64,000 bases of DNA, taken from the NCBI GenBank assembly GCA_034620365.1, contig JAQGEQ010000326.1, positions 124,001-188,000 of the forward strand, written 5' to 3'. Shown here piece after piece: positions 4,651 to 63,623 of this stretch; within the stretch, counting starts at the first letter, position 1, and each line of letters begins with the position of its first letter. Origin of the DNA: Pegea sp. RAD2-039. Taxonomy: Eukaryota; Chordata; Thaliacea; Salpida; Salpidae. Below the pieces are notes generated by a model that did no database searches, had not been told where the DNA came from, and saw nothing but the letters and a program-made list of their open reading frames with translations. The translations under genes were made by a program, and so were the position numbers.

Positions 4651-5529
4651 ATGAACTTGATACAAGACAGCAACTTTGCACGAAAAAGAAAACTGTCATC
4701 AGATGATGATAAGAAAAGTTTTAATAATGAAACTGCAGAAAAGAAAATTTTGGTAAACACTTCTGGTGGAGTATATAGCTTTTATAAAAGTCATGCTGAT
4801 GAAAATAGTTTAAATAATACTAAAGAAATTCCAACAACTACAAGTTTCCCTTATAAAGAGACTAACAGCGATATAAAAGCATTCAAAGGGAAAGAAAATA
4901 ATGAAAAAAACAAACAATCATCTAATTTCAAAATCAAATATGAATGCTTAGACTGTAACAAGAAATTTAAATGCAAATCTCAGCTTGTTTATCATGAAAG
5001 AACTCATACTGGTGAGAAGCCATATGAATGTATTGTTTGTGAAAGACAATTTAGTGATAGATCTAGTCTTTTAAGTCATGAAAGAACTTATACTGGTGAG
5101 AAACCATATGAATGTATTGCTTGTGAAAGAAAATTTCGTCGAAAACACCATTTGTTATGTCATGAAAGAACTCATACTAGTGAGAAACCATATGAATGTA
5201 TAGTTTGTGAAAGAAAATTTCGTCGAAAACACCATTTGTTATGTCATGAAAGAACTCATACTGGTGAGAAGCCTTATGAATGTATTGTTTGTGAAAGAAA
5301 GTTTAGTCAAAACGCCCATTTGTTATGCCATGAAAGAACTCATACTGGTGAGAAGCCATATGAATGTATAGTTTGTGGAAGAAAATTTGCACGTAATTCT
5401 AATCTTTTAATTCATGAAAGAACTCATACTGGTGAGAAGCCATATGAATGTATTGCTTGTGGAAGAAAATTTAGTGATAGATCTAGTCTTTTAAGTCATG
5501 AAAGAACTCATAATATTCATAAAAGTTAA
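4651..5529 (+). CDS. C2H2 zinc-finger protein, 7 fingers (N1/B type)
   Basis: Probable sequence-specific nuclear DNA-binding protein of 292 residues. The start is the ATG 15 nt after a TTTTCGTCAG splice acceptor; the upstream in-frame TTG at 4645 is not a eukaryotic start. Residues 1-98 are polar and hold [10 protein letters not shown], a likely nuclear localisation signal with an acidic serine patch. Fingers run from residue 99 at 28-residue spacing with TGEKP linkers. Helix cores in order: [63 protein letters not shown]. Oddities: finger 2 ends HERTY, so its last zinc-binding His is Tyr; fingers 3 and 4 are a near-perfect 84-bp tandem duplication; fingers 2 and 7 share a helix. The tail is NIHKS rather than the KRTH ending of other B genes. 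It is convergent with 11259-12388. No known effector domain is visible, so repressor or activator function is unknown. Confidence 0.88.
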
Positions 5530-8500
5530 AATCATCTTGCTGGTAAACGTTTACTCACAATTCAAGTATGGAAAGATGAAAACATTTTTAAACTTAAAAG
5601 TAACTTAATTATAAAGAGATCTTTGAGTTTAAAGGAAACAAAATAATAATGTTCTGTTTGGCAGGTTGTTGCAATTTATGCTTTAATTTACTGTTTTAAT
5701 GATTGCTCTATTATTGAAATTGTGTGTAAGTCTACTATAAATAATAATGGTTTTATATTTTATTTTTTACTTTAAACTAAAGTTGGTATTCTTATGTTGT
5801 TATTTTCGTACAGCTTTTTTGTAAACTATTGAAAAATTTTGTATTCCTTAATTTTCGAAGTTTGTATATTAAGTATTTGTTAACATCTTCTTTTATTTTT
5901 CAACAAGTTTTTGAAAGTAATTGTAATTTTTTAGTTGATAAAGGCAGTCGAAATTGTGGTTACTTTTTAGTTACTCTCTAAAGATTCGTTAAATCCTTAT
6001 ATGTTTGTAAAACTGATTATTTTTGTGTTTTGTATTTATTATGAAAGTAAAACTACAGTTTTTAGTAATTATTGCAATTTTTATGAGAAAACTTATGTTT
6101 GAAATTTTTAAAATTATATCCTTTCTTAAAATGCTTGTTGGAGATAAAAACAATAATCGTTATTATCCTCTTCATACTATAAATTTAGAAAAAGAAGTTT
6201 TTTAACATTTCATAATATCGACAATTACATCATCATAAATAAATCATCTTCTATAGCACTTGATTGTTTCTTACCCAAATAGTTAGATCAAAATTAACAG
6301 ATTGAGTTTTTTAAATAGTTTAAATTACTTTATAATTTTGTAACCTCAGAGGAACGGCAGAAAAACTAATATTTTCTTATCGGTTACTACTCCATCATTT
6401 TTAAAACTTTACGATTAATATTCTTGTAAGCAAGTTGCTAGAGTGTTTTAAACTGTTCTGTTTAATACTTTTACATCAGATATATAACTGTATCTATTTC
6501 AGCCCTTGGTAATTCTAATCTTCGAACCAAATATTAAGTTGCTATTTTAAATGGAACTCTTATTATCCAAACAAATCGCAACAAACCAAAACACCTGACC
6601 AAAACATCGATGCAGTAACTGATTATAACTATAAAGAGATTATTCCTTATAAGAAATAATCTTATGAAAAAGTCTTATGAAATAACATCTGTTTGGAATG
6701 AGGAATTTACTTTAAAATTTACCACTTTGTAAACTAAAATTAATAAAAATAATTATTTAAAGTTGCTAATACCAACAAGACAGCCAAAATGTCTTAAGGA
6801 TGATACCTTCCAAAAAGTGAATTTTAAACTATTTTTATTCTTGGTATAAGACTTTACAATATGAGTTAGTATTTTTAAGTTAAAAAAATTAAATAAAAGT
6901 ATTTGCCTCAAATTTGCAATACTCTTATAAGTTATAATATTTTATAGATTTTTGAGATACACATCGCACATTTTGTAACGTTGTTTTTTGAATTTTTTTT
7001 TGTGAAGATTTATCAATTCTTAATTATTACTTTGAAATCATTCATAAAACCATCAATGTAACAAATCAACATTTATCAGTACGTCTGATATATTGAAATT
7101 AGATTAAGAAAACTATAATATGAAAAAGAATTTAAAAAAGAAATTCATTCTATTTTATTTAGCAACTTATTCTGTTGTTCGAGATTTAAAGATGGAAAAC
7201 CATCAAAAGTCACAGGCGCTCAAAAGGATCTACAGAAAAATAAAAGAAATCTGACATTAAAATGTACAAATCCTGTATTATTTTGTGAAGAAATATATGT
7301 GTCAAGAAATAAGAACAAAAATACAAACAAATCTGACGTATAAGTAATGAAACAAAACGGTTCAAAAACGTTCTAGCAATTTAAAGCAATTTTATCTATT
7401 AGATTAAAATTGACTGGTAACAAATTAGCATTTGTTAGTTCTCCTGTCTTACGTATAAAGTTATAAAATAAGGAAAGCAATTCAAACTGTTTTAGCAACT
7501 CAATATGTTAATTCTGAAGATGTTAATTTCAAAAGATCAATCGGGTAAGTTATGGATTAGTATTAATGGAGATTATTTTATTTCATATAATATATTATAT
7601 ATAATAATTTTATAATATCAACCAATTGTTTATATGGTTTTTGATATAAAATCTACATTAAATAAAACCAGAAATCTACAACCAATTTCTAAAATCAAAG
7701 AAGTAATGTCAATAAAGAAAAGTCCAGATTACTGAGAAACGAAAGTTGTAAAATCTAACTGTGACTAAAACAAGGTTCGGAAAAACTGCATAAGTGGTAA
7801 GGTAAAAAACTAGCACAAAATGATTAGGCAAAGATCATATTATCTTAATTGATTTTTAGATAAATTTGTATATAAGCTTCCTTCAAGTTGGAAAGAATTA
7901 CTTCAAAGTTCTCTTTATCACGTGCATTTTAAGTTATTTTGTTTTTAAATAAACTACAGAGTACAATAATTTGCTCTTACGACAATTATAGGCTACAAAA
8001 TTATGTTATGAAATATTTTGATGTTCTTAAAAAGAAATATATTATTTTGTCAATTTTAGTTTGTTTTATCTAATAACTTAAACTGTATACATCAGTTTTA
8101 GTTTCATTAATAGGTAAAGTTACAGCAGAGCAACTTTTTTTATAAATTTTTGCTGTTTGATACACTTAGCTAATAGCCTTCATTTTTGAGCTATATTTCA
8201 TTTAAGTAAAATTATTTTTGCTATTTGATAGAAAAACAAGTTCTACTTTATTTGTATTTGTACAAATAAAACGTGTTTAAAATATAACTAAATAATAAAC
8301 ATTTCAAAAAGAAGTTAGATGAGTCGCCTTTATCTTGCCGTTTAAAGTTTCTGACAAAAGTTAAATCAGAAACTGTGATCTGAGATTCACGGGTTGCTGA
8401 AAGTTTTCATAATTGAAAGAGAATATTTGAGTAACAAACTCGTAGTAGAAAGTTAAAAAGAGATGAAAAACAATTGATAATAAAACTCAGAAACAACTTT

Positions 8501-8850
8501 TTCATTGATTTGTTTACTACGGATATTTAAACCTTTTATCAACAAGTGAATGAAAGTAATATAAAAAATGTTTCTAAGAAAAGAGCTGAATATCATCTTC
8601 GAAATTTCCATCAATAAAATTTAATTTAAATAATAAATTAAAAATTAGCTTTCGTTCAAAATCAGCAGTGGTTCTTACAATCCTCTTAAGACGTAAAAAA
8701 TATCGTTAATTATTATCAAAAACATGAAATAAAAAAGGCTTATTAGAATTACTAACCATTATTAGCCAGATTCAAAGGATATTTGTAATAAAGCTTAAAG
8801 CAGTTTTTGAATTAGTAAAGTAATATCATTGTTAGCAGATACATTTTTAA
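5530..8850 (+). repeat. B-type 3' flank, copy 1
   Basis: Homologous to 58238-60974 (same strand) and to the reverse complements of 28440-31759 and 45120-48454. The first ~300 bp are also shared with 52082-52375. It contains only short reading frames (for example an ATG-started frame at 6041-6205) that are stopped in some paralogous copies, so I call no gene here. Confidence 0.7.
5543..5554. promoter_or_regulatory. 12-bp palindrome GTAAACGTTTAC, 13 nt after the stop
   Basis: Perfect palindrome present at the same place after every B-type gene in the window. Each arm is a forkhead-like GTAAAC core. Function is unknown; it may act in DNA or in the 3' UTR. Confidence 0.6.
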
Positions 8851-9780
8851 GTGAATAAATGTTGTTAGGGAGGATAACATAAATTTGTTTCAACATGACC
8901 TAGTTAAAGTACTTAAAACCCAAATCAAGCAAATTCTTGGCATTAATTTATATAAGAATAGCAGAGCAAGATAATCCAAAAAACAAATCACACCAGAATC
9001 AATATTTCACTTTTCATTTATTTTGATTTAGTTAAAAATTTATGTTAAGAGATCTTTCCAAATGGTATTAGAAGAATACAAACCTTCAATTGGTTTAAAG
9101 TAGATGATTATTTAAAAACTTTTACTTTTTGGTATGTCAAGAATGTTTAAAATATCTTTTTAAGATATGTCATGTAATACAATTATTAGTTAAAAGATTA
9201 AGTAGAGGTCAAAAATACCTATCTTGCTTGATAACAGTAACCAACTTGTGATGGAACCAGAGAATAAAGTTATCCTTGATTGATTATCAATGAGGTAAAC
9301 TGAAATTGATTTTTCTCAAATGATACAAAATTAAATTGTTTAAGCAAAGCATTGATTTAGTAACCATAAGGAATATGTTCCAAAGGTAGAATAATCTTAT
9401 GAAATAACATTTGTTTTTAAATAAAGAATTTGAAGTACGAAAAACCAGTAAAACTATTTCAATGACCGTACTAAGCACAAAAAATATTGTTAAATAGAAC
9501 TGATTGCAAATAATAAAAATATAATAAAATATGTAAAATTGGTATTACCAACAAAAAAAACAAAATAACTCCAGGATGACACCATTCGAAAACATAATTT
9601 TTAAACAATTTTAAAAATTTTTTAAACAGGTTTAAATCATTTAAACCAAAGTATTTACTTCAAATTTGAATTACTAATTTAAGTTTTTAAATTTCAAGAT
9701 TTTTTTCGAAATGCACCTCCAGTATTTCCAAAGATTTTTTTAAATTTAAACTTTACTTATAATTTTATTTATTTTATTTT
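8850..9780. repeat. central spacer between convergent genes
   Basis: Matches the inverse of about 25850-26790. No gene is seen: the 63-codon minus-strand frame at 9287-9478 is isolated, AT-biased and lacks any recognisable domain. Confidence 0.55.
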
Positions 9781-9789
9781 TTTACTTGA

Positions 9790-10010
9790 AAAAACTTGCG
9801 CTTATCAAACCACTTGTATGAATGGCCAAATATTCATCACATTCAATTGCAAGTATTGCATCTGCTGTCAGTTTGATTCTCTAAAAGCCTGATGACCAGC
9901 AATCATGTGACAACAAAGCAAGTATGTGATACCGATTGTGTTGTCAGTTTCTTATGTGGCTAACTCACATTATGAATTTCTTGGCAAAGTTAATATAAAG
10001 GGGTTGTTTA
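9790..10010 (-). repeat. GC-richer dispersed repeat R, inverted copy
   Basis: About 200 bp with markedly more G+C than its surroundings. Related copies lie at about 14280-14470, 43730-43920 and 53225-53410 on the plus strand. Shared words include GAGTTAGCCACA and GCTTCGTTGTCA. It may be a short interspersed element. I see no RNA polymerase III box that I would defend. Confidence 0.55.
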
Positions 10011-11124
10011 ATTAACAAAACAGTTTTCTAATATTTTCTAATATTGTAAACAATAAACTGAAGTACTTTTGCAAATTTTTTTTTATGAATTAAATTCTAA
10101 ATAATGTTTTTTTTACTTCATCCACAAACTTGTGCTGATTATTAAAAAAAATATTTTAAAGATAAACTAAGAGATTTTTTCAAGAAATTTGGTGAATTTG
10201 TAGATTGCATAATTTAAAGACATCGGCAAACTAAAGTTAGATGTTTTGGTCTTATCTTGTTTGCTGAAAGTAATTCAGTTGAAAAAGTAACTGTGTTTAG
10301 ATATACTGAAAGTAATTTACGAAAAATGAAATATTATTAAATCTAAATTGACAACTTAAAATAATACTATTATAAAATAGTTTAAACTGAAATTACTGGC
10401 AAACATTAAGCAAATTTTTCTTCTTCTGACGTAATAACTGGCTTGCTAAGAAAGTTTAAGAAAATTAGATATTTATTTCAATTTTTCATCAACTCAATCT
10501 TTTAAGTTAGTTTTAACTATTCGGGTAAAAAACAGCTTAGTGCTATAGCAGAAGGGATTAATTATGATGCAATATGAATTATTAAAAAGTATTTATTTTT
10601 AAAATGAAATGATAAACAAAATAGCATTAGGTTTGAACAAAGAGATTTTATGAATTAAAACTTTATTTTCTTGAAATTATTTTGAGTATCTACTAAAAAC
10701 TGAAGTTTCAATTAAAAAAATAAAAATAAATTGTGAAGAGTAATAAGTTGCAGAAATTTAAGAAGTTTTAAACGGATTTCTCAACAAAAACTAAAATCTA
10801 TGTGCAGTTTGAACAGCATTGATTAACTAAGAATTTAAAATCTAAATACAGAAGCTTTTTGATAATAAATAAAGGACAATAAAATACTTGTTGGTTTGAA
10901 AAAACTTAGAATAAAAACGAAATAAGATATAGTTCGTTTACAAAAAAAAAATACAAACCGCCAATCACAAACAATAAAAAAAAATAACTTTCAAATGATT
11001 ATCATTAACTGTAACATACACCATTTGATTAATAAAACAAATATTGATAAAATAAAAACAGCTCAAACTGAAAAAAACAATTTTAAAAATTATATTTTTA
11101 AACCCTCTGATCTTCACAAAGCTA

Positions 11125-11130
11125 TTTATT
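11125..11130 (-). terminator. candidate polyadenylation signal AATAAA
   Basis: AATAAA on the minus strand about 130 nt past the stop of 11259-12388. It occupies the same place in all four A-type genes. Confidence 0.45.
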
Positions 11131-11173
11131 TCTTCTTATAAATTGTGAGTAAACTTTGACCAGCAAAATGATC

Positions 11174-11258
11174 TCACTTTTTCTGAGAAACATGCATCAT
11201 TTCATGGCGTAATCAACTTGAATTTCAACTAAATTTTTTTTTCACAAAAAATATATTC
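11174..11258 (-). pseudogene. dead terminal zinc finger after the stop (A type)
   Basis: Directly after the stop the sequence still aligns to a finger: a damaged first Cys region, then codons readable as FS-stop-NSS-stop-LRHEMMHVSQKK. Two TGA codons sit where the 35.5-kb remnant has CGA (Arg). The finger was once translated and is now cut off by a stop in the linker. Confidence 0.7.
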
Positions 11259-12388
11259 CTATGGTTTATGGACGGTATGAGTCCTTTCATGAGTTACAAG
11301 ATTGGAATTTCGGGCGAATCGTCTTCCGCAAACACCACATTCATATGGCTTCTCACCAGTATGGGTTCTTTCATGACATTGAAGACTAAACCTATGCCCA
11401 AATTTTTTTTCACAAACAATGCATTCATATGGCTTCTCACCAGTATGAGTTCTTTCATGACATAGAAGACTGGAATTATGTGCAAATTTTTTTCCACAAG
11501 CAATACATTCATATGGTTTCTCACCAGTATGAGTTCTTTCATGAATTGAAAGATTGGAATTATGTTCAAATTTTCTTTCACAAACAATACATTCATATGG
11601 CTTCTCAACAGTATGGCTTCGTTCATGACTTAACAAATAGGTGTTTCGACTAAACTTTCTTTCACAAACAATACATTCATATGGCTTCTCATCAGTATGA
11701 GTTCTTTCATGACGTAACAAATTGGTTTTTTGACTGAATTTTCTTTCACAAACAATACATTCATATGGTTTCTCACCAGTATGAGTTCTTTCATGGCATA
11801 ACAAATTGGTTTTTTGACTGAATTTTCTTTCACAAACAATACATTCATATGGTTTCTCACCAGTATGAGTTCTTTCATGATTTAAAAGACTAGATTTATG
11901 ACTAAATTTTCTTTCACAAACAACACATTCATATGGCTTCTCGCCATTATGAGTTCTCTCATGACCTAACAAATGGTGTTTTCGACTAAACTTTCTTTCA
12001 CAAACTATACATTCATATGGTTTCTTGCCAGTATGAGTTCTTTCATGATAAACAAGCTGAGATTTGTATTTAAATTTCTTGTTACAGTCTAAGCATTCAT
12101 ATTTGATTTTGAAATTAGATGACTGTATATTTTCTTCATCATTTTCTTTCCCTTTGAATGCTTTTTTATTGCTGTTAGTCTCTTTATAAGGAAGACTTGT
12201 AGTTGTTGGAATTTCTTTAGTAATATTTAAACTAGTTTGATCAACATGACTTTTATACAAGCTATATACTCCACCAGAAGTATTTACCAAATTTTCTTTT
12301 CTGCAATTTCATTATTAAAAGTTTTCTCATCATTATCTGATGACAGTTTTCTTTTTCGTGCAAATTTGCTGCCTTGTATCAAGTTCAT
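11259..12388 (-). pseudogene. C2H2 zinc-finger gene, 10 fingers, broken by a 1-nt deletion (N1/A type)
   Basis: The conserved ATG is at 12388-12386, 15 nt after a TTCTTCAG acceptor. Compared with the gene at 48455-49417, one base is missing from an A/T run near 12289-12293, so the N-terminal frame hits TAA at 12284-12286 after about 36 codons. The rest stays open for ten fingers but contains no ATG, so reinitiation could not easily rescue it. Total length 1130 nt is one less than the 1131 nt of the ten-finger paralogues. Helices in order: [90 protein letters not shown]. The tail is TVHKP then stop. The intact finger frame suggests recent loss, or a sequencing error in the homopolymer. The 5' half resembles the B gene at 48455 while the 3' end is A type. 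Confidence 0.82.
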
Positions 12389-12403
12389 TTTCAATTTAAT
12401 AGG

Positions 12404-13320
12404 CTGAAGAAAAAAAAATTGTTAATTTTAAAATGTGCATATAAAATAATTTTAGTTTTAAGTGATATATAATTTTTATATGATATATAAAGTTTGTTTA
12501 CTAATGATAACAATCAAGTTTTTATCATGTTTTGTAAAAGTCTTAGCCAGAAACTTATGATGTTCTATATACATACTTTTATTAAAAACGAATTTGAAGA
12601 ACAATTTTTTGTAAACTTTAGCAGGTATTTTCACAAATTGTTGGTTATAGTTCAATATTTAGGCAACAAAACATCCAATTCTATAATAAATAAATAGAAA
12701 TAAATTCTTCTATAGAAAAGGCATTATTATTTTACATGTAGCAGTTACGAGGGCAAAACACGTTTGCTTGTGATAATGATAACATGAGTTCAGAAACTAA
12801 AAATTAAAAAGTACTTTAAAAATATAAGATTTAACAGTGTTTAAAATAGATCAACAAGATGTTAAACCTTTATTTTACAGATTTTAATCTTCAGTTATTT
12901 ATCTCATATTCAAGTGTAAGGTCCTCAATAGAATTCACTTGTATGATGTTACATTAATAATGAGCAACGATTAATCAAAAAATATATCAAACTATTTCTA
13001 GTTATTTTTAATTACATATATACTTAGTTATGTTTATATATATATTTTATATTTTAATTATAGTTAAAGAATATTTTAATGAAAATTCGAGAGTTGATAT
13101 TGACTTATTGAATTTACATTATAATTAATTTTAAAATGATAAGTTCAACTTAAAAAAATACATATTTAAATATCATGGAAATGTATACTGAATTTATAAC
13201 TTACAAGCCAATATAAACGAACAAAAATTGACTTAAACTCTAATATTTTGACATTTAGAAACATTTACTACAAATTTTTATTTTAAAAAAGTTTGAAAGA
13301 TTAATGTTTAAACGCAATAC
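12404..13320 (-). other. candidate 5'-UTR intron of 11259-12388
   Basis: Donor-like ACAG/GTATTG (GT at 13320-13319) and acceptor TTCTTCAG ending at 12404 bound 917 nt. TATAAAAA on the minus strand lies at 12480-12473. The small plus-strand frame at 12494-12697 is a chance frame on the non-coding strand. Confidence 0.42.
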
Positions 13321-13620
13321 CTGTAAATACTTCACAAAAATCAATACTAGCAATTGTCTTATAAAATTAAGCAAGCTACATAAGTTTACAAAATATCAAA
13401 AATCATTCAGGATTTTCTAACACCAATCGATTTTCTATATTGGTATTAAGTTTACAAGTAACTAAAGGAGGCAAACGAGAGAAACCAAAGCTTATAACTT
13501 ATAATAAGTTATGATAATATATATAACACAAATGACGTTACCAAACATATAAACTTTTGGTCAAAGTCTTCTTAGGAATATAGATATATGTTTGAATTAT
13601 AAAAGTGATTTATTAATCTT
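13321..13620 (-). promoter_or_regulatory. upstream module (P), copy 3
   Basis: Inverted copy with TGACGTTACCA at 13533-13543 beside ATATATAT, and the CT-rich block (as its purine complement) near 13455-13490. It serves, by position, the broken gene at 11259-12388. Confidence 0.5.
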
Positions 13621-13869
13621 CAAAACAGTTGAGAGAAATTATAATTTTGAAAGCAATGTTGGAAATAATAAATTGTTTGTATGTAAATTATGATGACAGA
13701 ATCAAAGTTCTAGAAGCTTCTGCTGTTTGTGTTTTGTAGCTTGTTGATTATTATTTTGATGCTTTTACTGCTTTGCTATTAATATTTGTTGTGCATTAAA
13801 ATTTTTCAGCAATATTGAGTAACTGCAAATCTAAACTTCTTAACAGGCTATGTTAATTCTAGGGCAGAA

Positions 13870-14900
13870 TTTAATTCAGTGATATTCTACATTTTTAAGA
13901 GCTTTGAAAATGAAATTATATTAGTGGACTTGAAATCGAGGTGTCTTAGGAGAAATTTTAAAGTAAATTTTTAAATAGTCAAGATGTTTTTTCTAATAAA
14001 ATAGACCTTTACTAATGAATTAGAAAAGTTTTATTAGAAAAATAATCACTGAAACCAGTTAACAATTTAGTGGATATCATTTAACTTTTTCTTTATTTTA
14101 ATTTAGTTTATTATTTTTAAATAGTTTTAAATATTTATAATAGTCCTTAAATAACCCTTCATTTTTACAATCATTCAACATTTAAACAACTCCTAACTTA
14201 CTGATTATGTCATCAGTATTTTTTGAAACAATCTCATTTGATAATGGTTGAAATAGAATACTGATGTTTTGTTAATTAAACATCCCCTTTACAACAAGTT
14301 TGCCATGAAATTCATAATATGAGTTAGCCACACAAATAGCTGATGGTATCACATACTTGCTTCGTTGTCATATGATTGCTGGTCATTTGGCCGTTAAAGA
14401 ACCGACAGCAGATGCAATGCTTGTAATTGAATGTTATGAATATTTGGCCACTCATACAAGAGATTTGATAAGCGCAATTTTTTTCAAAGTTTTTCAATGC
14501 ATTTTTTAAATAATTTTACAAAAATGACAAAAAATAAATTTAATAAAAATGATAGGAAATTTTGGATGTGTATTTCGAAAAAAAAACTTTGAAATTTAAA
14601 AACTTAAATTAGTAATTCAAATTTGAAATAATCATTTTTGTTTTAATTGATTAAATCTAAATATACAAATTCAAATTGAAAACTTGATACTACGATGAAA
14701 GACTGTTTAAAAATTATTTTTCCGAATGGTGTCATCCTGGAGTTATTTTGGTTTTTTTATTGGTATTAGTAACTATACATATTTGTTTTTATTATTTATT
14801 CTTTACAATCGGTACTAGTTAGTAGATCAATGAAACAATTTAACTATTTAATCATTGGTTCGAGAGTTAGGATATTCGAAAGTTTATTTAAAATTTATTG
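13870..14900 (+). repeat. dispersed block containing repeat R
   Basis: About 13870-14460 is closely matched at 43330-43920 and more loosely at 52990-53460. The GC-richer R core lies at about 14280-14470. The stretch 14500-14800 resembles the central spacer at 25870-26110. No gene is seen. Confidence 0.55.
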
Positions 14901-15640
14901 ACAATCTTATTTCTTTTACAAAAGGTGATAAATAAACGAAACTGTAAAGTTTTATGTTTTGAGTTTTGATTTGAATTTTTTTTAATTAACTATAAATTCA
15001 TTTTTATGGAATCCATAGATTCTCTAACAGCCAGATAACCACAAATATTAAACTGAATTCAAGATGAAAAAAAAGAAACCTTTATTGATATAATTACTTA
15101 TGTCTTACAAAACGGTCACTATAGATTAGAAGAAGGTTTTATTGCTAAACAATAAAAAAAATTATTAGATTTAAAGAAAATATATTCATAATAGGAATAA
15201 TTTCAATTTATTGATTTTTGACAGATAGCATATAATGATAAGAATTTTGATAATTAACAATCTAAAAGCTGCTAATTTAATATTCGAGAGTTTAAATAAA
15301 TTCTTCTCATTGTTGAAAAATTTGCCTAATTTATTAAATATTGAAATTACTTTGTCTAATAAAGAATGTTTCTTTAAAGTAATTACATTCATTTAATTGC
15401 ATTCAAGTAATATTGAAAAAAACTTGTATTGTATATTTTACTCATAAATTGCAGCTCCATTGATTGAAAAAATTCTTATCAATATGAAAATATTGCAAAA
15501 ATAAATAAGAAAAATTTTACATTCCAAAATATTTTCTGCATGTTCTCATAATGAATACATTAAAGTGATTTTAAACTGAATTCTTTTATTTCAACTTATA
15601 GCTTATAAAATAAAAATATTTTGATTACTTTATTTATACT
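14900..15640. other. intergenic, no gene seen
   Basis: AT-rich. The 68-codon minus-strand frame at 15186-15392 is dominated by Leu, Ile, Lys and Asn, as expected of chance frames at this composition, and has no paralogue that I see in the window. Confidence 0.4.
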
Positions 15641-39095: not shown

Positions 39096-39097
39096 TT

Positions 39098-48429: not shown

Positions 48430-48441
48430 GTAAACGTTTAC
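48430..48441. promoter_or_regulatory. 12-bp palindrome GTAAACGTTTAC
   Basis: Perfect copy 13 nt beyond the stop, as after every B-type gene. Confidence 0.6.
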
Positions 48442-48454
48442 CAGCAAAATGATT

Positions 48455-49417: not shown

Positions 49418-49432
49418 TTTCAATTTAATAGG

Positions 49433-50649: not shown

Positions 50650-50650
<1 letters not shown>
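50331..50650 (-). promoter_or_regulatory. upstream module (P), copy 7
   Basis: Inverted copy with the CRE-like half site changed to TGATGTTACCA (CpG lost) near 50541. It ends abruptly near 50650, where DNA of the N2-type upstream region begins, so the neighbouring broken gene at 51454 has no P module of its own. Confidence 0.5.
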
Positions 50651-52081
<1,431 letters not shown>

Positions 52082-52375: not shown

Positions 52376-52379
52376 TAGT

Positions 52380-52800
52380 CATATAACTGGAATACAACAT
52401 CTCAATAAACAGATTTATAAATCACTTTTGTTTCATCACCTCCTAAGTTCTTGAAACGACTTTAATTAATTCCTTAAATAGAGATAATAGTTTCTGATAC
52501 AATTCAAGATGCTGGATTGGATCAGAAACACTAAGCATGTTTTTTGTTTGTTTATTTTGATGGTACAAATGGAGCTAGGGTGACATTGGCACTGGCTGCT
52601 GTAGCCGCCTTGGGCAGTTTCCCTCAGTTATTTGCAGGGTTATATCGGTTAATTTAAATTTTGAGTTTGTGGCTTACTCAAAAAACTGTTTAAAAATAAA
52701 TTTATTTTAATAATATGAGTTTTATTCATTGTTTTCTACACATTATTTGTTATCAATTTATATCTAGATTTTACTTTCTTAGTAGTTGTCATTATTAGTA
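52380..52800 (+). repeat. degraded coding-like fragment, copy 3
   Basis: The GC-richer core (about 52560-52655) reads NGARVTLALAAVAALG then SFPQLFAGLYRLI and a stop, aligning residue for residue with the 36-kb copy. Unknown protein. Confidence 0.4.
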
Positions 52801-52841
52801 GTTGATAAAATGAAATATTAAAAAGCATTTATTTTTAAAGA

Positions 52842-52849
52842 TGACGTCA
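52842..52849. promoter_or_regulatory. isolated CRE palindrome TGACGTCA
   Basis: The only perfect CRE palindrome I found outside the 19.3-20.0-kb cluster, in the context GATGACGTCATC, which resembles the cluster units. Confidence 0.5.
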
Positions 52850-52989
52850 TCACTTCCTCTCAAAACAAAAACAGCCTCGGGGCAATGAGTCAGGTTTTAT
52901 CACAATTGAATATTAACTCAAAAATTATTTTTATTCCTTTTTCTACTAGAAAAATAAAGATGAAAAAACCTGTTATATTAGAAAAAATT

Positions 52990-53460
52990 AATCACTGAAA
53001 CCAATTAAATTTAGTGGACTTCATATAACTTTTTATCCTGAAATTTTGATGCAGTTTCTTATATTTTAAATATATATAAATTGAGTCCTTCAACAATCAT
53101 GCATTTTAACAATCAGTCAATATTTAAACAACTCCTAACTAATTGAATTATGTCATCAGTATTTGTTGAAACAATCTCATTTGATAATGGTTGAAATAGA
53201 ATATTGATGTTTTGTTATTTAAGCATCCCCTTTATAACAACTTTGCCAACGAATTCATAATGTGAGTTAGCCACATAAAAAGCTGACAACACAATCGATA
53301 TCACAGACTTGCTTCGTTGTCACATGATTGCTTGTCATTTGGCTGTTAGAGAAACAAACCGACAGCAGATGCAATGTTTGCAATTAAATGTTATGAATAG
53401 TTGACCCGCTATAATCTGCACTTTATAGCAAGAAACACAATATAGTACAGATTACATCGG
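52990..53460 (+). repeat. dispersed block containing repeat R
   Basis: Diverged copy of 13990-14470 and 43450-43920. The R core is at about 53225-53410. Confidence 0.5.
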
Positions 53461-55100
53461 GACGAATTGTGACAATTCTACTGAAAGAAAATTTGGATGT
53501 TATATGCAGTGTATTCAGTTTAATGTTTGATGTTATATGGCTATTAGAAAATCGATGGGTGGCATAAAAATGAATTTAAATTTCTAAACATTTTCTAAAA
53601 AAATAGAAATCTAGTTTTTTCATAACCAATGAAAAAATTAATTACCAATCATTAAATTGTGTTCTGGTTATCAAGAACTAATAATAAGATTAATTAAAAA
53701 AAATTAAATCAAAACTCAAGACCTAAAACTTTACTGTTTCGTTTATTTATCACTTTTTGTAAAAGAAATAACATTGTCAATAAATCTAAAACTAAAATTA
53801 AAACTAATTAAAAGTTATTCTTATTTTGTTGGAATACTAATTGATGAGGACATTCTAGAATGAAAATTATGGAAACAGCTTAAAGTTTGAATAATAAGAA
53901 AGAAAACTTTACAAAAATAGATTGGTCGATTACAATTAGGTAGAACCAAGAGTTTTGATGAGCGGCAAGTTTTATCACATTTTTTTTAATGTGTTTTCAA
54001 ATCATATATTTTGATAGAAAATTTTTTGATCGATCAAAAAGATCAATACAGGATTAGCAAGAAATCTGAGGTATAAGTAATAAAACCAAATAGTTCGAAA
54101 AGATCTTAACTGATAAAAAAGTTTAAAATAAACTGACTGTTAAACAACCAGCAAAATATTTTTCATCTGAAGTTCTTGCAGATTTATATAGATTTTGAAG
54201 TACTTTAATTTTTTTATCAATTCATTCTTGTTACTTTTTCATTTTAAACATTTAAGTAATAAATGGTCCAGTGCAGAGCAGATGAGATTAATTAGGATGA
54301 TGTAGTTGTTGAGAGATAGAAACTTATTGTACAATAATTTACAAATTTCACTTAATTGATTATCCATTGAAGACTATTTGGATAAATATTCTTAAGTTAT
54401 AAATTATTGAAGAAACTGCCAGTCAACGAAAAATGTTTTGTCAATTGTTCTGGTCAATGTGTGGTCTTCATGAGATTTTTAGCTTGGTTAAAGTCTTAAT
54501 GGTCTTACAACTATGTATTCATTAGTTTTCACTTAAAAAAAATGTTCAAAAAGTTATTATATCTCCGTTGTAAATTAAATAGTTAAAATTATTTTGTAAA
54601 TTTAGTAGTTATTTTGAGAAAAGTTTTTAATAATTCTATGCTTCCTTAATTGTTTAATATAAATATACATTTTATTGATAAAAAACCTAATCTGTTTCAT
54701 ATATAATTTTTCAAAAAAACAACTTTCTGAATTTTAGTTAGGTATCTTTTTCTTACGACTTTTAGTTTTTGAAATCGTAACGCTCGGAAGTAAATGACTG
54801 TTTTGCTTAGAAGTAAGTTTCTTCAAGAAAGTTTAAGATTGTTTATCTCTTAATTGTGTAACGCAACTTTATTCAATCTTATATTCGAAACCTTAAAAAC
54901 AGTATTCAACCATCTAATAACAATATGCAGAACCATCAGAAAATTAAATGATAAGTTAAACGAGTGTGTGCATGTTGTTATATAAAATTTATTTATAGAA
55001 AGTTAATTTTCGGTTTCCTAATTGGAATAAATCACATTTTCCCAACTCTAATGATAAAAACTCTTTAAAGAAGCTTTATTCAATTTGCAAAGGGAAACTA
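53460..55100. other. intergenic, no gene seen
   Basis: AT-rich. About 54330-55060 is a direct copy of 37620-38380. The stretch 54050-54300 resembles 21640-21870. No supportable reading frame. Confidence 0.5.
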
Positions 55101-55830
55101 ATAACGAAGATAAATAACAAAACACTACTAACTAACCAGTGTCGACTACAGAATGAAAACGTATATAGAGTAATAGGGGATGAAACATTTACGTAAATGG
55201 TAAAATATTCTAATATCACTACTAACAATAACAACACTACTTTTCCACTTATTGTTTGTAGCTTTGTGAACTAAAATGTACCTCTTACTGCTGTTCTTGA
55301 AATTCTTTCTTAAAACTTCACTTATTCATTGATTTGTTGGTGGTACATAGTTGTTATATCACTTTAGTACTCGTTTTTTTGAAAAAATGTTTTTCTAGCG
55401 ATTAATTAATGTATTCAGCCAAACGAACCTACGCACTCATCCAAAAACAAGAATACCTTATAGAATAGTTTTTCAGAGGTTGTACAAAAAAATTGAAATG
55501 AATAATATCTATTAGTATTTCTTGAAATTTAATGTTTATTTGCAACTTTTAAAAATATAAAATACAAAAATAATAAAAAGTGAATGAACAAATAATCTTA
55601 CGAAGTTTGGATTTTGCAGTTAATTTATAATAATAAAAAACATAATGTACCAAAATACTGAGAACAAAGCAGCAAAACCATTTAAATAAAAATCTACAAC
55701 AACCAAATCATAATAGTAAAAGCTTCTATAACTTTGATATTATCATCAGAATTTGCCTGCAAAGATTGTTTTGTTTCTAAAACTACTTTCAAAATTATAA
55801 TTTCTCCAAACTGTTTTGAAGATTAATAAA
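55100..55830 (-). repeat. repeat module T, copy 4, with shared flank
   Basis: Same orientation as 38400-39095, with the CTATATA and AATAAAGC elements on the minus strand. No gene is seen. Confidence 0.45.
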
Positions 55831-55839
55831 TCACTTTTC

Positions 55840-56119
55840 TAGATCAAACATATATATATATATTCTTAAGAAGACTTTGACGAAAATTTTATATATTTGG
55901 TAAAGTCATTTGTGTTATATATATTGTTATAATTTAGCTTAAATTATAAGGTTTTGTTAGTCGCTTTTGCCTCTTTAGTTACTTGCAAGCTTAATGTCAA
56001 TATAGAAAAACGATTGTTGTTAGATGATCATGAATGATTTTTGATGTTTTGTAAATTTATGTAGCTTGCTTAATTTTAGAAGACAATTGCTAGTATTGAT
56101 TTTTTTGAAGTTTTTGCAG
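55840..56119 (+). promoter_or_regulatory. upstream module (P), copy 8
   Basis: ATATATAT, AAGAAGACTTTGAC, the CRE-like site altered to TGGTAAAGTCA, TTATATATATTG, and GCAG/GTATTG with GT at 56120. By position it serves the gene at 57026. Confidence 0.5.
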
Positions 56120-57010
56120 GTATTGCGTTTAGACATTAAATTTTTAAACTAAACTTTTAGTAAATGTTTATAACTGTCAAAATATTAGACTTTAAGTGAA
56201 TTTTTGTTCGTTTATGTTGGCTTGTAAGCTATAAATTTTGTTTACATTTCCATGATACTTAAATATGTATTTTTTAAAGTTGAGTTATCATTTTTAAATT
56301 AATTCAATAAGTCAAAATCAACTCTTGAATTTTCATTAAAATATTCTCTAACTATAACTAGAAAATAATATATATATATAAATATAATTAAGTATATTTG
56401 TAATTAAAAATAACTAGAAATAGTTTGATATATTTTTTGATTAATTGTTGCTCACTATTAATGTGACATCATACAAGTTAATTTTATTGAGGGCTTTACA
56501 CTTGAATATGAGATAAATAACTTCAGATTAAAATCTGTACAATAAGGGTTTAACATCTTGTTGATCTATTTTAAACACTGTTAAATCTTACATTTATTAC
56601 ATAATTTTTAATTTATAGTTTCTGAACTCATGCTATCATTTTCACAAGCAAACGTGTTTTGCACTCGTAACTGCTATATGTAAAACAATAATGCTTTTTC
56701 TATAAAAAAACTTTTTTCTATTTATTTTTATAGAATTATAAATTTTGTTGTCTAAATATTGAACTATAACCATTATTTGCAAAATACTTGCTAAAGTTCA
56801 CAAAAAATTGTTTTTCAAATTCGTTTTATATAGAAATATTTATATAGAACATCATAAGTTTCTGGTTAAGACTTTTACTAAACTTGATCTAAACTGGAAT
56901 GTTATCATTAGTAAACAAACTTTGTTTATCATATAAAAATAATATATCACTTAAAATTAAAATTATTTTATATACATATTTTGAAATAAAAATCGTTTTT
57001 TTTTCTTTAG
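56120..57010 (+). other. candidate 5'-UTR intron of the gene at 57026
   Basis: Donor-like GTATTG at 56120 and the TTTCTTTAG acceptor ending at 57010 bound 891 nt. TATAAAAA at 56932-56939 could act as an alternative near promoter. Confidence 0.45.
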
Positions 57011-57025
57011 TCTGGTAACTTGAAA

Positions 57026-58237
57026 ATGAATTTTATACAAAGCAGCAACTTTGCACGAAAAAGAAAACTGTCATCAGATGATGATGAGAAAACTTTTAAT
57101 AATAAAACTGCAGAAAAGAAATTTTTGTTAAACACTTCTGGTGTACTATATGGCTTGTATAAAAGTAATGCTGATCAAACTAGTTTAAATAATACTAAGG
57201 AAATTCCAACAACTACAAGTTTCCCTTATAAAGATACTAACGGCGATAAAAAATCATTCAAAGGGAAAGAAAATAATGAAAAAAACAAACAATCATCTAA
57301 TTTCAAAATCAAATATGAATGCTTAGACTGTAACAAGAAATTTAAATGCAAATCTCAGCTTGTTTATCATGAAAGAACTCATACTGGTGAGAAGCCTTAT
57401 GAATGTATAGTTTGTGAAAGAAAGTTTAGTCGAAAACACCATTTGTTAGGTCATGAGAGAACTCATAATGGCGAGAAGCCATATGAATGTGTTGTTTGTG
57501 AAAGAAAATTTGCACTTAACTCCAGTCTTTTAAGTCATGAAAGAACTCATACTGGTGAGAAACCATATGAATGTGTTGTTTGTGGAAGAAAATTTGCACA
57601 AAATTCCAATCTTTTAACTCATGAAAGAACTCATACTGGTGAGAAGCCATATGAATGTATTGTTTGTGAAAAGAAGTTTAGTCAAAAGTCTAGTCTTCTA
57701 TGTCATGAAAGAACTCATACTGGTGAGAAGTCATATGAATGTATAGTATGTGGAAGAAATTTTGCACATAATTCCAGTCTTTTAAATCATGAAAGAACTC
57801 ATACTGGTGAGAAACCATATGAATGTATTGTTTGTGAAAGAAAATTTAGTCGAAAAACCACTTTGTTATGTCATGAAAGAACTCATACTGGTGAGAAGCC
57901 ATATGAATGTATAGTATGTGGAAGAAATTTTGCACAAAATTCCAATCGTTTAACTCATGAAAGAACTCATACTGGTGAGAAGCCATATGAATGTATTGTT
58001 TGTGAAAAGAAGTTTAGTCAAAAGTCTAGTCTTCTATGTCATGAAAGAACTCATACTGGTGAGAAGCCATATGAATGTATAGTATGTGGAAGAAAATTTG
58101 CACAAAATTCCAGTCTTTTAAATCATGAAAGAACTCATACTGGTGAGAAACCATATGAATGTACTGTTTGTGGAAGAAAATTTAGTCAAAATTCCGGTCT
58201 TTCATACCACAAAAGAACTCATTTTAATCAGAAGTAA
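57026..58237 (+). CDS. C2H2 zinc-finger protein, 11 fingers (N1/B type)
   Basis: The largest intact member, 403 residues; probable nuclear DNA-binding protein. The ATG is 15 nt after the acceptor; the TTG at 57020 is not a start. The N-terminal segment has [11 protein letters not shown] and the usual ~98-residue polar tail. Helices in order: [99 protein letters not shown]; the tail is KRTHFNQK. Fingers 4-6 and 8-10 correspond one to one, pointing to a four-finger (336-bp) internal duplication; finger 8 has Arg at a usually Leu helix position. The linker after finger 5 reads TGEKS. All zinc ligands are present. It is convergent with 62493-63623 and lies downstream of the dead gene at 51454 on the same strand. 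Confidence 0.9.
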
Positions 58238-58250
58238 AATAATTTTGCTG

Positions 58251-58262
58251 GTAAACGTTTAC
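58251..58262. promoter_or_regulatory. 12-bp palindrome GTAAACGTTTAC
   Basis: Perfect copy 13 nt past the stop. Confidence 0.6.
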
Positions 58263-58392
58263 TCACAATTCAAGTATGGATAAATGAAAATGTGTTTAAA
58301 CTTAAAAGTAGCTTAACTATATAAAGAGATTTGAGTTTAAAGGAAACATAATAATAATTTTTTGTTTGGCTGGTTGTTGCAATTTATGTTTT

Positions 58393-58398
58393 AATAAA
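58393..58398 (+). terminator. candidate polyadenylation signal AATAAA
   Basis: About 155 nt past the stop, aligned with the signals at 31601-31606 and 48299-48304. It is lost in the 4651 gene's flank. Confidence 0.35.
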
Positions 58399-61300
58399 GC
58401 TATTTTAATGATTGCTCTATTATTGAAATAGTGTGTAAGTCTACAATACATAATAATGGTTTTAAATTTAATATTTTACTTTAAACTAAAGTTGGTATTC
58501 TCATGTTGTTATTTTCGTACAGCTCTTTTGTAAACTATTAAAAAATTTGCTTGTTATCCTTAATTTTCGAAGTTTGTATATTAAGTATTTGTTAACATCT
58601 TCTATTATTTTTCAACAAGTTTTTGAAAGTAATTATATTTTTTTAGTTGATAAAGGCAATCGAAATTGTGGTTACTTTTTAGTTACCCTCTAAAGATTCG
58701 TTATATCGTTATATGTTTGTAAAACTGATTAATTTTGTGTTTTTTTATTATTTTGAAAGTAAAACTACAGTTTTTAGTAATTATTGCAATTTTTATGAGA
58801 AAACTAATGTTTGAAATCTTAAAATCTATTTCCATTCTTGAAATGCTTGTTGGAGATAATAACAATAAACGTTATTATCCTTTTCATACTATAAATTTAG
58901 GAAATGAAGTTTTTTAACATTTCATATTATCGACAATTACATCATCATAAATAAATCATCTTCTATAAAACTTGACTATTTCTTACCCAAATAGTTAGAT
59001 CAATATTTTATAATTTTGTAACACCAGAAATACGGCAGAAAAACTGATATTTTCTTATCGTTTACTACTGTATCAATTTTAAACTTCACGATTAATATTC
59101 TTGTAAGCAAGTTGCTAGAGTGTATTAAACTGTTCGGTTTACTATTTCTACATTAGATACATAACTGTAGATCCATTTCAGCTCTTGGTAATTCTAATTA
59201 TCGAACCAACCATTAAGTTGCTAATTTAAAAAACCATCGGTGCAGTAACTGATTATAACTATATACAGATTATTCCTTAGTTGAAATAATCTTATGAAAA
59301 AGTCTTATGAAATAAAATTTGTTTGGAATGAAGAATTTACTACTAAATGTGAACTAATAAATGATAAAAATAAGTATTTAAAGTTGCTAATACCAACAAG
59401 ACAGCCAAAATGTGTTAAGGATGATACCTTCCAAAAAGTGAATATTAAACAATTTTCATTCTTGGTATAAAGCTTTACAATATGAGTTAGTATTTTGAAG
59501 TTAAAAAAATTTAATCAAAAATATTTGCCTCAATATTTGAAATACTCTTTTAAATTTTATTATTTTATAGTTTTTTGAGATACACATCCCACATTTTGTA
59601 ACGTTGTTTTTTGAATTTTTATTTGTGAAGATTTATCAATTCTTAATTATTACTTTAAAATCATTCATAAAACCATCAATGTAACAAATCAACATTTATC
59701 AGTACGTCTGATGTATTGAAATTAGATTAAGAAAACTAGAATATAAGAAAGAATATAAAAAAGAAAATCATTCTATCTCATTTAGCAACTTATTCCGTTG
59801 TTTGAGATTTAAAGTTCCAAAACCATCAAGATACTAAAGCGCTCAAAAAGATGTACAGAAAAATAAAAAATATCTGTTATTAAAATGTAAAAATCCTGTA
59901 TTATTTTGTAAAGAAATATATTTGTAAAGAAATAAGAACTCAAATTACAAACAAGTTTGACATAAAAGTAATGAAAAAAAACGTTTCATCGATTAGATTA
60001 AAATGGACTGGTAACAAATTAGCATTTGTTAGTTCTCCTGTTTGACATATAAAGTTATAAAATAAGGAAAGTAATTCAAACTGTTTTTGCAACTCAATAT
60101 GTTAATTCTGAAGATGTTAATTTTAAAAAACCAATCTGGTATGTTATGGACTAGTTATATTGGAGATGATTTTATTTCATATAGCATAATATATATAAAC
60201 ATTTTAGAATATCAACCAATTTTTTTATATGGTTTTTGATATAAAATCTACATTAAATAAAACCGGAAATCTACAACTAATTTCTAAAATCAAATAAGTA
60301 ATGTCAATAAAAAAAGTCCAGATTACTAAAAAACGAAAGTTGTAAAATCTAACTGTGACTAAAAAAAGGTTCGGAAAAACTACATAAGTGGTAAGGTAAA
60401 AAACCAGCACAAAATGATTAGGCAAAGATCATATTATCTTAATTGATTTTTAGATAAATTTGTATATAAGCTTCCTTCATGTTGGAAAGAATTACCTCAA
60501 AGTTCTCTTTATCACAGTCGTTTTCAGTTATTTTGTTTTTAAATAAACTACAGAGTACAATAATTTGCTCTTACGACAACTATAGGCTACAAAATTATGT
60601 TAACATATATTTTGATGTTCTTAAAAAGAAATATATAATTTTGTCAATTTTTTGTTTGTTTTATCTAATAACTTAAACTGTATACATCAGTTTTAGTTTC
60701 ACTAATAGATAAAGTTAAAGCAGAGCAACTTTTTATATAAATTTTTGCTGCTTGATACACGTAGCTAATAGCCTTCATTTTTTAGTTATATTTCATTTAA
60801 GTAAAATTACTTTTGCTATTTGATAGAAAAACAAGTTCTACTTTATTTGTATTTGTACAAATAAAACGTGTTAAAAATATAGCTAAATAATATACATTTC
60901 AAAAAGAAGTTAGAAGAGTCGCCTTTATCTCGTTGCTTGAAGTTTCTGACAAAAGTTAAATCAGAAACTGTTATACGTTTCTCTACATAACACTTTTTGT
61001 ATAATTGTATAAATGTGAAAATTTATTCTGGAAAAGTTTTAGTAATTGACTTCTCTTAGTAGCTAGACAAAGTTATTGTGAGTTAAAACTTGTTGTAACA
61101 ACTTGCTATTACATTTGTAATAATATATATGATTATTCTTTGCAGTTAAAATTATTATTTTTATAAACATAATTTATAATGTTTATTATAAACATTATGA
61201 TTTTTGGCTAAGACATCGTGTAGATAGATGTGTTAAATCAACTTTTCGTTTATCTAATAATTTTTCCAGTTTTCTAATATTGTAAACAATAAACTGAAGT

Positions 61301-62358
61301 ATTTTTGAAACATTTTTTTATGAACTAAATTCTACATAATGGTTTTTTTACGTCATCCACAAACTTGTCCTGATTAATAAGAAAAATATTTTAAAGATAA
61401 ACTAAAAGATTTTCTCAAGAAATTCGGTGAATTTGTAGATTGTATAATTTAAAGACATCAGGAAACTAAAGTTTCTAGATGTTTTGGTTTTATCTTGTTT
61501 GCTGAAAGTAATTCAGTTGAAAAAGTAATTGTGTTTATATATACTGAAAGTAATTTAAGAAAAAAAGAATATTGTTAAATCTAATTTGACAACTTAAAAT
61601 ATTACTATTTTAAAATAGTTTAAACTGAACTTACTGGCAAACGTTAAGCAAGTATTTCTTCTTCTGACGTAATAAATGACATGCTGACAAAGTTTAAGAA
61701 AATTAGATAATTATTTCAATTTTTCATCAACTCAATCTTTCAAGTTAGTTTTAACCATTCGGGTAATAAACTGCTTAGTGCTATAGCAGAAGGGATTAAT
61801 TATGATGCAATATGATTTATTAAAACTATTTATTTCTAAAATGAAATGATAAACAAAATAGCATTAGGTTTGAAAAAAAAGATTTTGAGAATGAAACTTT
61901 ATTTTCTTGAAATTATTTTGAGTATCTACTAAAAACTGAAGTTTCAATTAAATAAATAAAAAAAAAATTGTGAAGAGTATTAAGTTGCAGAAATTTAAAA
62001 AGTTTTAAACGGATTTGTTAAAACTAAAATCTATCAGCAGTTTGCACAGCATTGATTAACTAAGAACTTAAAATTTAAATACAGAAGCTTTTTGGTAATA
62101 AATAAGAGACAAAAAAAAACTTGAGGGTTTGAAAAAACTTGGACAAAGAACGAAATAAGATATAATTCGTTTACAAATAAAAATACAAACCGCCGATCAC
62201 AAATAATAAAAATAGAAAACGTTTCAAATAATTATCATTTACTGTAACATACACCATTTGATCAATAAAAAAATTATTGATGAAAAAAAAAACAACTCAA
62301 ACTGAAAAAAACAATTTTAAAAATTATATTTTTAAACCCTCTGATCTTCACAAAGCTA

Positions 62359-62364
62359 TTTATT
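62359..62364 (-). terminator. candidate polyadenylation signal AATAAA
   Basis: About 130 nt past the stop of 62493-63623, in the conserved A-type position. Confidence 0.45.
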
Positions 62365-62407
62365 CATTCTTATAAATTGTGAGTAAACATTTACCAGCAA
62401 AATCATC

Positions 62408-62492
62408 TCACTTTTTCTAAGAAACATGCATCATTTCATGGCGTAATTGACTTGAATTTCAACTAAATTTTTTTTTCACAAAAAACATATTC
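62408..62492 (-). pseudogene. dead terminal zinc finger after the stop
   Basis: Same fossil finger as at 41451-41535, including the CAA at the second ancestral Arg codon. Confidence 0.7.
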
Positions 62493-63623
62493 CTATGGTT
62501 TCTCGCCGGTATGAGTCCTTTCATGAGTTACAAGAGTGGAATTTCGAGCAAAACGTCTTCCACAAACAGCACATTCATATGGCTTCTCACCAGTATGAGT
62601 TCTTTCATGAGTTAAAAGATTGCAAATATGAGTAAATTTTCTTCCGCAAACAATACATTCATATGGCTTCTCACCAGTATGGGTTCTTTCATGACATAGA
62701 AAACTAGATTTATGACCAAATTTTCTTTCACAAACAATGCATTCATATGGCTTCTCACCTGTATGGGTTCTTTCATGACAATGAAGACTAGACTTTTGAC
62801 TAAACTTCTTTTCACAAAGAATACATTCATATGGTTTCTCGCCAGTATGAATTCTTTCATGACTTGAAAGACTAGATTTTTGTGCAAATTTTCTTTCACA
62901 AACAAGACATTCATATGGTTTCTCACCAGTATGAGTTCTTTCATGACTTAACAAATTGGTGTTTTGACTAAACTTCTTTTCACAAACTATACATTCATAC
63001 GGCTTCTCGCCAGTATGAGTTCTTTCATGAATTGAAAGATTAGATTTTTGTGCAAATTTTCTTTCACAAACAATACATTCATATGGCTTCTCACCAGTAT
63101 GAGTTCTTTCATGACTTAAAAGACTAGATCGATGACAATATTTTCTTTCACAAACTGTACATTCATATGGCTTTTCACCAGTATGAGTTCTTTCATGACT
63201 TAGAAGACTAGATCTATGACTAAATTGTCTTTCACAAACAATGCATTCATATGGCTTCTCACCAGTATGAGTTCTTTCATGATAAACAAGCTGAGATTTG
63301 AATTTAAATTTCTTGTCACAGTCTAAGCATTCAAATTTGATTTTGAAATTAGATGATTGTTTGTTTTCTTCAATATATTCTTTCCCTTTGAATGCTTTTT
63401 TATCGCTGTTAGTCTCTTTATAAGGGAAACTTGTGGTTGTTGGAATTTCTTTAGTATTATTTAAACTATTTTGATCAGCATGACTTTTATACAAGTTATA
63501 TATTCCACAAGAATTGTTTACCAAAATTTTCTTTTCTGCAGTTTTCTTATTAAAACGTTTCTCATCATCATCTGATGACAGTTTTCTTTTCCGTGCAAAG
63601 TTGCTGCCTTGTATCAAGTTCAT
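62493..63623 (-). CDS. C2H2 zinc-finger protein, 10 fingers (N1/A type)
   Basis: Probable nuclear DNA-binding protein of 376 residues. The ATG at 63623-63621 is 15 nt after the TTCTTCAG acceptor ending at 63639. The N-terminal segment has [11 protein letters not shown]. Helices in order: [90 protein letters not shown]. Compared with its inverted twin at 40320, finger 3 has Ser for Arg at helix positions 3 and 6, and finger 9 has Cys for Ser at helix position 2. Finger 2 has ERQF for ERKF. The core Tyr in finger 3 is shared. It stops in the linker, followed by a dead finger. It is convergent with 57026-58237. Confidence 0.9.
   Translation of the reverse strand: MNLIQGSNFARKRKLSSDDDEKRFNKKTAEKKILVNNSCGIYNLYKSHADQNSLNNTKEIPTTTSFPYKETNSDKKAFKGKEYIEENKQSSNFKIKFECLDCDKKFKFKSQLVYHERTHTGEKPYECIVCERQFSHRSSLLSHERTHTGEKPYECTVCERKYCHRSSLLSHERTHTGEKPYECIVCERKFAQKSNLSIHERTHTGEKPYECIVCEKKFSQNTNLLSHERTHTGEKPYECLVCERKFAQKSSLSSHERIHTGEKPYECILCEKKFSQKSSLHCHERTHTGEKPYECIVCERKFGHKSSFLCHERTHTGEKPYECIVCGRKFTHICNLLTHERTHTGEKPYECAVCGRRFARNSTLVTHERTHTGEKP

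Follow-up and report, generated by a model that had tools for sequence, protein, structure and literature searches.

Our analysis concerns a 64,000-nucleotide stretch of the Pegea sp. RAD2-039 genome (hereafter the window; C255:124001-188000, where C255 stands for contig JAQGEQ010000326.1), in which C2H2 zinc-finger genes with one of two kinds of 3' end, A or B, face each other in convergent A/B pairs. Across the assembly (387 contigs, 105.7 Mb), this pairing is a strong but not strict bias, and it runs through a cluster of some 150 zinc-finger genes whose neighbors lie mostly on opposite strands, with module junctions preserved and halves of genes reshuffled. We favor, at a probability of roughly 60%, the explanation that copying of segments and ectopic recombination, in either orientation, multiplied an old convergent pair. 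The window is part of one large cluster in which the coding part of each gene is a single open frame, and most of this cluster consists of two recurring modules, a spacer S between the 3' ends, comprising an A-side and a B-side end, and an interval D between the 5' ends.

The 3' and 5' ends were counted assembly-wide with 24-base patterns, and all counts are lower bounds; ends truncated without the pattern, such as an A remnant near C255:68 kb, escape counting. We found at least 56 A ends on four contigs and at least 74 B ends on five, the latter after excluding from 75 matches a single one with 3 mismatches on contig C26. For the 5' ends, 100 of 104 main-type sites were used, together with 28 of 39 sites of a second type, N3 (those with at most 2 mismatches; 11 with 3 mismatches were left out). 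The sites used lie on C255, C254, C60, C89, and C93, and joining them by strand and distance gave 149 gene calls, many paralogues of one poly-finger gene concentrated on five contigs, as befits a cluster.

Neighboring 3' ends on the same contig numbered 125, and the 42 convergent ones comprised 31 A/B, 4 A/A, and 7 B/B pairs, where label shuffling predicts 20.8 A/B (p = 0.0008, by a statistic that assumes independent pairs, although the pairs descend from common copies). With 31 A/B pairs against 11 others, the joining of unlike ends proposed in an initial annotation of the window is a real tendency, and like-ended convergent pairs are far from being as common. No A/B bias was found among divergent neighbors (12 A/A, 18 A/B, 13 B/B) or same-strand neighbors (7 A/A, 17 A/B, 16 B/B) over the same assembly-wide 3' ends. 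The pairs occur in both senses, 18 as A+B- and 13 as B+A-, and an equal ratio is not rejected (p = 0.47). When the convergent ends lie within 6 kb of each other, 23 pairs are A/B, 2 are A/A, and none is B/B, with 12.4 A/B expected. This concentration (23 of 25) could be read as an arrangement kept by selection, for example, if convergent A and B transcripts regulated each other, but we consider this scarcely probable: the closeness of the A and B ends is accounted for by the spacer that the pairs share, and divergent pairs are without bias. The bias prevails alike on C254 (9 of 13 convergent pairs), C255 (14/18), and C60 (7/9), with 1 of 2 on C89. This agreement makes an assembly artefact, with inverted repeats misjoined, very unlikely, even though the cluster is rich in repeats and one end of C255 falls within a 99.6% inverted repeat; the 258 kb that were read contain no N, and main-type genes differ on average by 12.5% in their 5' flanks, a difference resolvable by reads of moderate length.

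With respect to strand, same-strand neighbors make up 40 of 125 by 3' ends (62.2 expected) and 39 of 144 (27%) by combined gene calls (71.6 expected), whereas in a head-to-tail tandem array they would be the majority. Restricting the count to the 109 calls that possess a 5' and a 3' end leaves 39 same-strand neighbors out of 104, with 51.8 expected (p = 0.0085, again on the assumption of independent pairs), so that the strand effect is weaker once incomplete genes are excluded. The strict alternation of strands that had been claimed therefore does not hold, and it fails within the window too, since a broken B-ended fragment shares its strand with the gene g20. The sequence read was C255:1-258000 (57% of the 453658 bases of C255) plus two further short stretches, and the sequence tests below rest on 8 A/B pairs and 26 to 31 loci. 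The features of the window, in window coordinates, are as follows.

4609..5529, + strand: g14, B end, pair 1; intact open reading frame (ORF) of 292 amino acids from the ATG
5530..11258, unstranded: spacer module S of pair 1, B to A (P129), by spacer comparison
11259..12308, - strand: g15, A end, pair 1; N-terminal frame shifted
12101..23719, unstranded: 5'-5' divergent interval D15_16, fingers to fingers, N-terminal coding parts included
23437..24402, + strand: g16, hybrid gene with a C-type (N3) upstream half, a C-like finger 1, and an A end
24403..31759, unstranded: spacer module S of pair 2, A to B (P148), by spacer comparison
31760..32479, - strand: g17, B end, pair 2; stop codon in finger 1
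32584..40608, unstranded: 5'-5' divergent interval D17_18, fingers to fingers, by D comparison
40218..41450, + strand: g18, A end, pair 3; intact
41451..48454, unstranded: spacer module S of pair 3, A to B (P165), by spacer comparison
48455..49450, - strand: g19, B end, pair 3; intact
49129..57248, unstranded: 5'-5' divergent interval D19_20, fingers to fingers, by D comparison
51484..52114, + strand: broken zinc-finger fragment with an N3-type upstream part and a B end; same strand as g20
57011..58237, + strand: g20, B end, pair 4; intact, 11 fingers
58238..62492, unstranded: spacer module S of pair 4, B to A (P182); 4.2 kb, the shortest of the eight read
62493..63725, - strand: g21, A end, pair 4; intact
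2463..9000, + strand: sequence whose inverted counterpart lies at the far end of C255, from 453658 down to about 446.9 kb

The four convergent A/B pairs first noticed in the window are thus present, with eight long zinc-finger ORFs located and their end types confirmed. Six of the eight are intact, the broken ones being those at 11259 and 31760; over C255:1-258000, 21 of the 31 loci examined encode four or more fingers in an uninterrupted frame from ATG to stop. A decayed finger and an AATAAA after the stop codon, described as the mark of the A end, were seen in all four window A genes. The palindrome described for the B end, GTAAACGTTTAC, stands at all four B ends (5543, 31735, 48430, and 58251), and a fifth copy, at 52095, belongs to the broken fragment. 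The A+T content of the window is 75%.

One spacer, S, with the same A-to-B order, is common to the eight A/B pairs of C255:1-258000, four in each sense, with aligned pieces mostly 84 to 96% alike and with insertions. Two spacers, P92 and P110, reach about 12 kb each; the A gene of pair P92 (g11) is truncated, and P110 encloses a gene, g12b, of what we call class C. The A and B 3' flanks are themselves about 66 to 72% alike in pieces of 140 to 260 bp, and the two ends are diverged paralogues. The D intervals are likewise homologous to one another, and several contain finger remnants. Among nine compared, the middles of D3_4, D8_9, D13_14, and D24_25 are in the same sense, yet their left genes are A, A, A, and B and their right genes A, A, B, and A, which indicates that S turns, or 3' ends swap, relative to D. 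For the most part, then, S modules alternate with D modules along the array, and a gene sits wherever the two meet. The two B/B pairs and one A/A pair of C255:1-258000, and one A/A pair on C254, have breaks or turned halves inside the spacer. At C255:239425-239428, an A end is joined to mid-spacer with an overlap of matches of about 4 bases, as in end joining or template switching. Remnants of two to three fingers near C255 22.7, 81.0, 203.6, and 221.8 kb occupy a similar place inside D modules and apparently represent a relic zinc-finger gene that the D module carries.

Copies in both orientations occur in the sequence read. With pairs between retrotransposon copies left out, self-matches of at least 93% over 2 kb were direct in 14 cases and inverted in 17, up to 247 kb apart; at 95% over 1.5 kb, the counts were 6 and 9. 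The newest copy seen (99.6%) is inverted and lies about 320 kb from its counterpart at window 2463 to about 9000, with which it agrees at 6509 of 6536 aligned bases. Within g14 (coding part, 4651-5529), the agreement is 878 of 879, and the 86 gap columns of the alignment are nearly all one 84-base finger, so that the protein of the inverted copy differs by one whole finger. This copy holds one gene flanked by portions of the two intergenic modules, and one of its ends coincides with the end of the contig. It had been suggested that inversion or palindrome formation contributed to the array. Inverted copies, about as common as direct ones, bear out the first part. Palindrome formation finds no support, since the best of 70 close inverted repeats in the 258 kb (arms of at least 250 bp, loops under 6 kb) reaches only 93.4%, and no young palindrome was found there. 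Ampliconic palindromes, such as those of sex chromosomes, resemble the cluster in having inverted gene copies that exchange sequence with each other; the close inverted arms here are not nearly identical, as those of a young palindromic amplicon would be.

Roughly equal orientations and copies up to hundreds of kilobases apart would also suit a mobile element bearing zinc-finger genes and able to insert both ways round. We hold this to be quite improbable, as the A ends are confined to four contigs and the B ends to five, with the single C26 match elsewhere, the ends of copies vary, and the only non-finger ORF confirmed as a known kind in the 258 kb is a non-LTR (long terminal repeat) retrotransposon, several ORFs of 90 to 160 codons being present besides. 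Nearness along the contig did not predict the similarity of genes (rho 0.06, p = 0.39). Conversion between convergent partners was considered and rejected: after 3 of 8 listed partners with an N3-type member were dropped, the remaining 5 main-type partners diverge by 0.101, compared with 0.125 over 190 pairs (P = 0.177). C254 and C60 were also considered as haplotype copies of C255; the best other-contig matches among 40 candidates scored per query reached 93% (A-end query) and 96% (B-end query), and the two contigs are therefore unlikely to be allelic copies.

Exchange between genes is suggested by hybrids. In 6 gene calls, the N3 (C-type) upstream half goes with an A end, and in 5 with a B end. 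Compared with the C-type gene g12b, g16 and g23 (A ends) and g2 and g28 (B ends) score 0.89 to 0.91 in the N-terminal part and 0.88 to 0.90 in finger 1 and fall to 0.71 to 0.74 in finger 2. The B hybrids g2 and g28 match the B gene g14 at 0.88 in the 3' flank; the A end of g16 and g23 rests on other comparisons, the A reference g15 having no ORF there. Genes that start as C type and end as A or B in this way are evidence of exchange at or near the finger array. Furthermore, the 5' and 3' flank trees reject each other, both for A genes (p = 0.0115 and 0.008; 11 of 15 genes used) and for B genes (p = 1.6e-8 and 0.002; 11 of 11 genes).

These data bear on the proposal that duplication acts on the entire convergent pair, which would be copied as one block and at times inverted. 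The common spacer of the eight A/B pairs fits this proposal, as do pairs 148/155 and 211/217, which are 92 to 94% alike, in the same sense, over a stretch that starts upstream of the A gene and continues for about 3 kb beyond it, and 89% alike thereafter. Nevertheless, we consider it rather doubtful, and as the recent unit of duplication the pair finds no support. Over seven of the eight pairs (P92, without a 5' part, was left out), distances on the A side and the B side do not correlate, neither between A3 and B3 (rho 0.21, p = 0.17) nor between A5 and B5 (rho 0.10, p = 0.34), whereas A5-A3 distances correlate (rho 0.58, p = 0.023) and far-B3 and B5 nearly do so (rho 0.66, p = 0.057). Spacers P129 and P211 share 94% identity along about 4.1 kb, yet their pairs differ by 0.43 in the A-side upstream flanks. 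Moreover, the newest copy contains no pair, and A/A and B/B pairs exist. Mosaic exchange and whole-pair duplication would both keep A/B junctions; we prefer the former because the two sides of pairs are unlinked, stretches on one side tend to share a history, and hybrids exist.

We thus propose the following model. From an old convergent pair of paralogues, the cluster would have grown as segments were duplicated in either orientation, while ectopic homologous recombination, by crossover and conversion, went on among direct and inverted copies. As homologous exchange at any point keeps junctions intact, S would keep its A and B ends, strands would tend to alternate, and the sense of the modules would be random. 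The A/A, B/B, and same-strand neighbors may stem from illegitimate joins, insertions, or deletions. The near-identical 84-bp fingers would be one place of exchange, where upstream halves (promoter region, N terminus, and first finger) could be joined to different downstream halves, giving rise to hybrid genes.

Several observations sit uneasily with this model. No recombination product has been seen directly. A tree of the 5' parts of 26 genes needs 4 changes of 3' type, as opposed to 8.6 when shuffled, and the 5' and 3' halves therefore mostly travel together. The newest copy fades out at about 9.0 to 9.5 kb, inside the spacer and not in the finger array, and since A5-A3 distances are linked, far-B3-B5 distances nearly so, and A3-B3 distances are not, exchange inside spacers looks at least as frequent as exchange at the fingers. 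Direct copies are the commoner at 90% over 3 kb (15 versus 10) and at 85% over 3 kb (42 versus 33). Finally, the A/A junctions are equally compatible with non-homologous joins.

More tentatively, the alternating inverted layout may act as a standing shuffling device, in which inversions between neighbors swap the promoter and N terminus relative to the finger array and 3' end, since fingers, D, and S all occur in both orientations. If so, new DNA-binding genes would arise by flipping as well as by unequal crossing over. The cluster is well suited for measuring, without much confusion, what inversion and ectopic exchange add to the making of new DNA-binding genes.

Compared with known systems, the array combines familiar and unfamiliar features. 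In vertebrate tandemly arrayed genes, 72 to 94% of neighbors are parallel, and opposite-strand duplicates are discussed as long inverted repeats open to recombination (PMC2547482); both systems are arrays of paralogues, but only 27% of neighbors are on the same strand here. The mammalian KRAB clusters, including mouse KZFP-related units (PMC5363842), are similar in having few other genes, signs of duplication and recombination, and changes in finger arrays. They differ in that no KRAB domain was found here in the scans of seven of the eight window proteins and one C-type protein, most neighbors here occupy opposite strands, and the 3' end types come in pairs. The FZNF (FiNZ) genes of zebrafish and its relatives share a lineage-specific expansion and base-contacting residues among the most variable, but no accessory domain was recognized here; gene orientation is not compared in that work (PMC10547256), whose text makes no mention of orientation or inversion. 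No published description of such an array turned up in our literature search, over sources seen in part, and one may nevertheless exist.

A third kind of gene emerges from the full call set, in which 53 neighbors are convergent: 29 A/B, 4 A/A, 3 B/B, and 17 with a B end facing an undefined end. Of these 17 partners, 15 have an N3 start and 2 a main-type start. The two that were read, g12b and g7b (both N3), have 3' flanks that lead into the spacer on its A side and resemble A ends only weakly, and we assign them on this basis to the third class, C. A class C gene at C255:114853-115557 (-) (L020) has an intact ORF of 234 amino acids, an N3-type start, and diverged fingers, and it lies on the A side of a spacer.

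The proteins encoded by the cluster are likely fast-changing DNA-binding regulators, perhaps directed against mobile DNA, by analogy with the FZNF genes (PMC10547256). In 238 of 243 fingers, compared in pairs drawn at random and not corrected for descent, with Cys and His fixed by the search pattern, the proportions of nonsynonymous and synonymous differences (pN/pS) were 0.439/0.140 at helix position 3 and 0.475/0.136 at helix position 6, in the usual finger numbering. Variable DNA-contact positions on a conserved framework are thus seen at these two positions, and the linker of these TGEKPY-linked fingers is nearly fixed. Two positions run contrary: no amino acid excess was found at helix position -1 (0.425/0.517), and the non-contact position 5 is also in excess (0.303/0.076). 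Pfam scans of seven of the eight window proteins and g12b returned zinc-finger models and otherwise weak, unconvincing matches, with neither a KRAB domain nor the zinc-finger-associated domain (ZAD) of the insect ZAD family found. The N-terminal part has 98 codons in 20 of 21 scored ORFs; constraint on its amino acids was considered and rejected, as a pN/pS of 1.08 (91 pairs, 14 genes) gives no purifying signal. Two B genes, at C255:59675-61249 and 217327-218733, have unusually many fingers (18 and 15), and in some B-end copies across the assembly, similarity to the query begins only at about base 130.

Other repeats occur in the 258 kb. Three copies of a non-LTR retrotransposon, presumably CR1-like, lie at C255:5463-7464, 24555-27170, and 36056-40053 (L009, L011, and L012); one copy has a 1024-codon open frame, and one has Pfam matches to reverse transcriptase and endonuclease. 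Similar, shorter pieces of retrotransposon ORF lie near C255 66.6, 101.7, 119.6, and 255.9 kb. A repeated ORF of 98 to 109 codons is present in duplicated intergenic segments near C255 14.7, 34.0, 73.0, and 140.7 kb, and a long tetranucleotide repeat lies at C255:27238-27819, just beyond the end of a retrotransposon copy.

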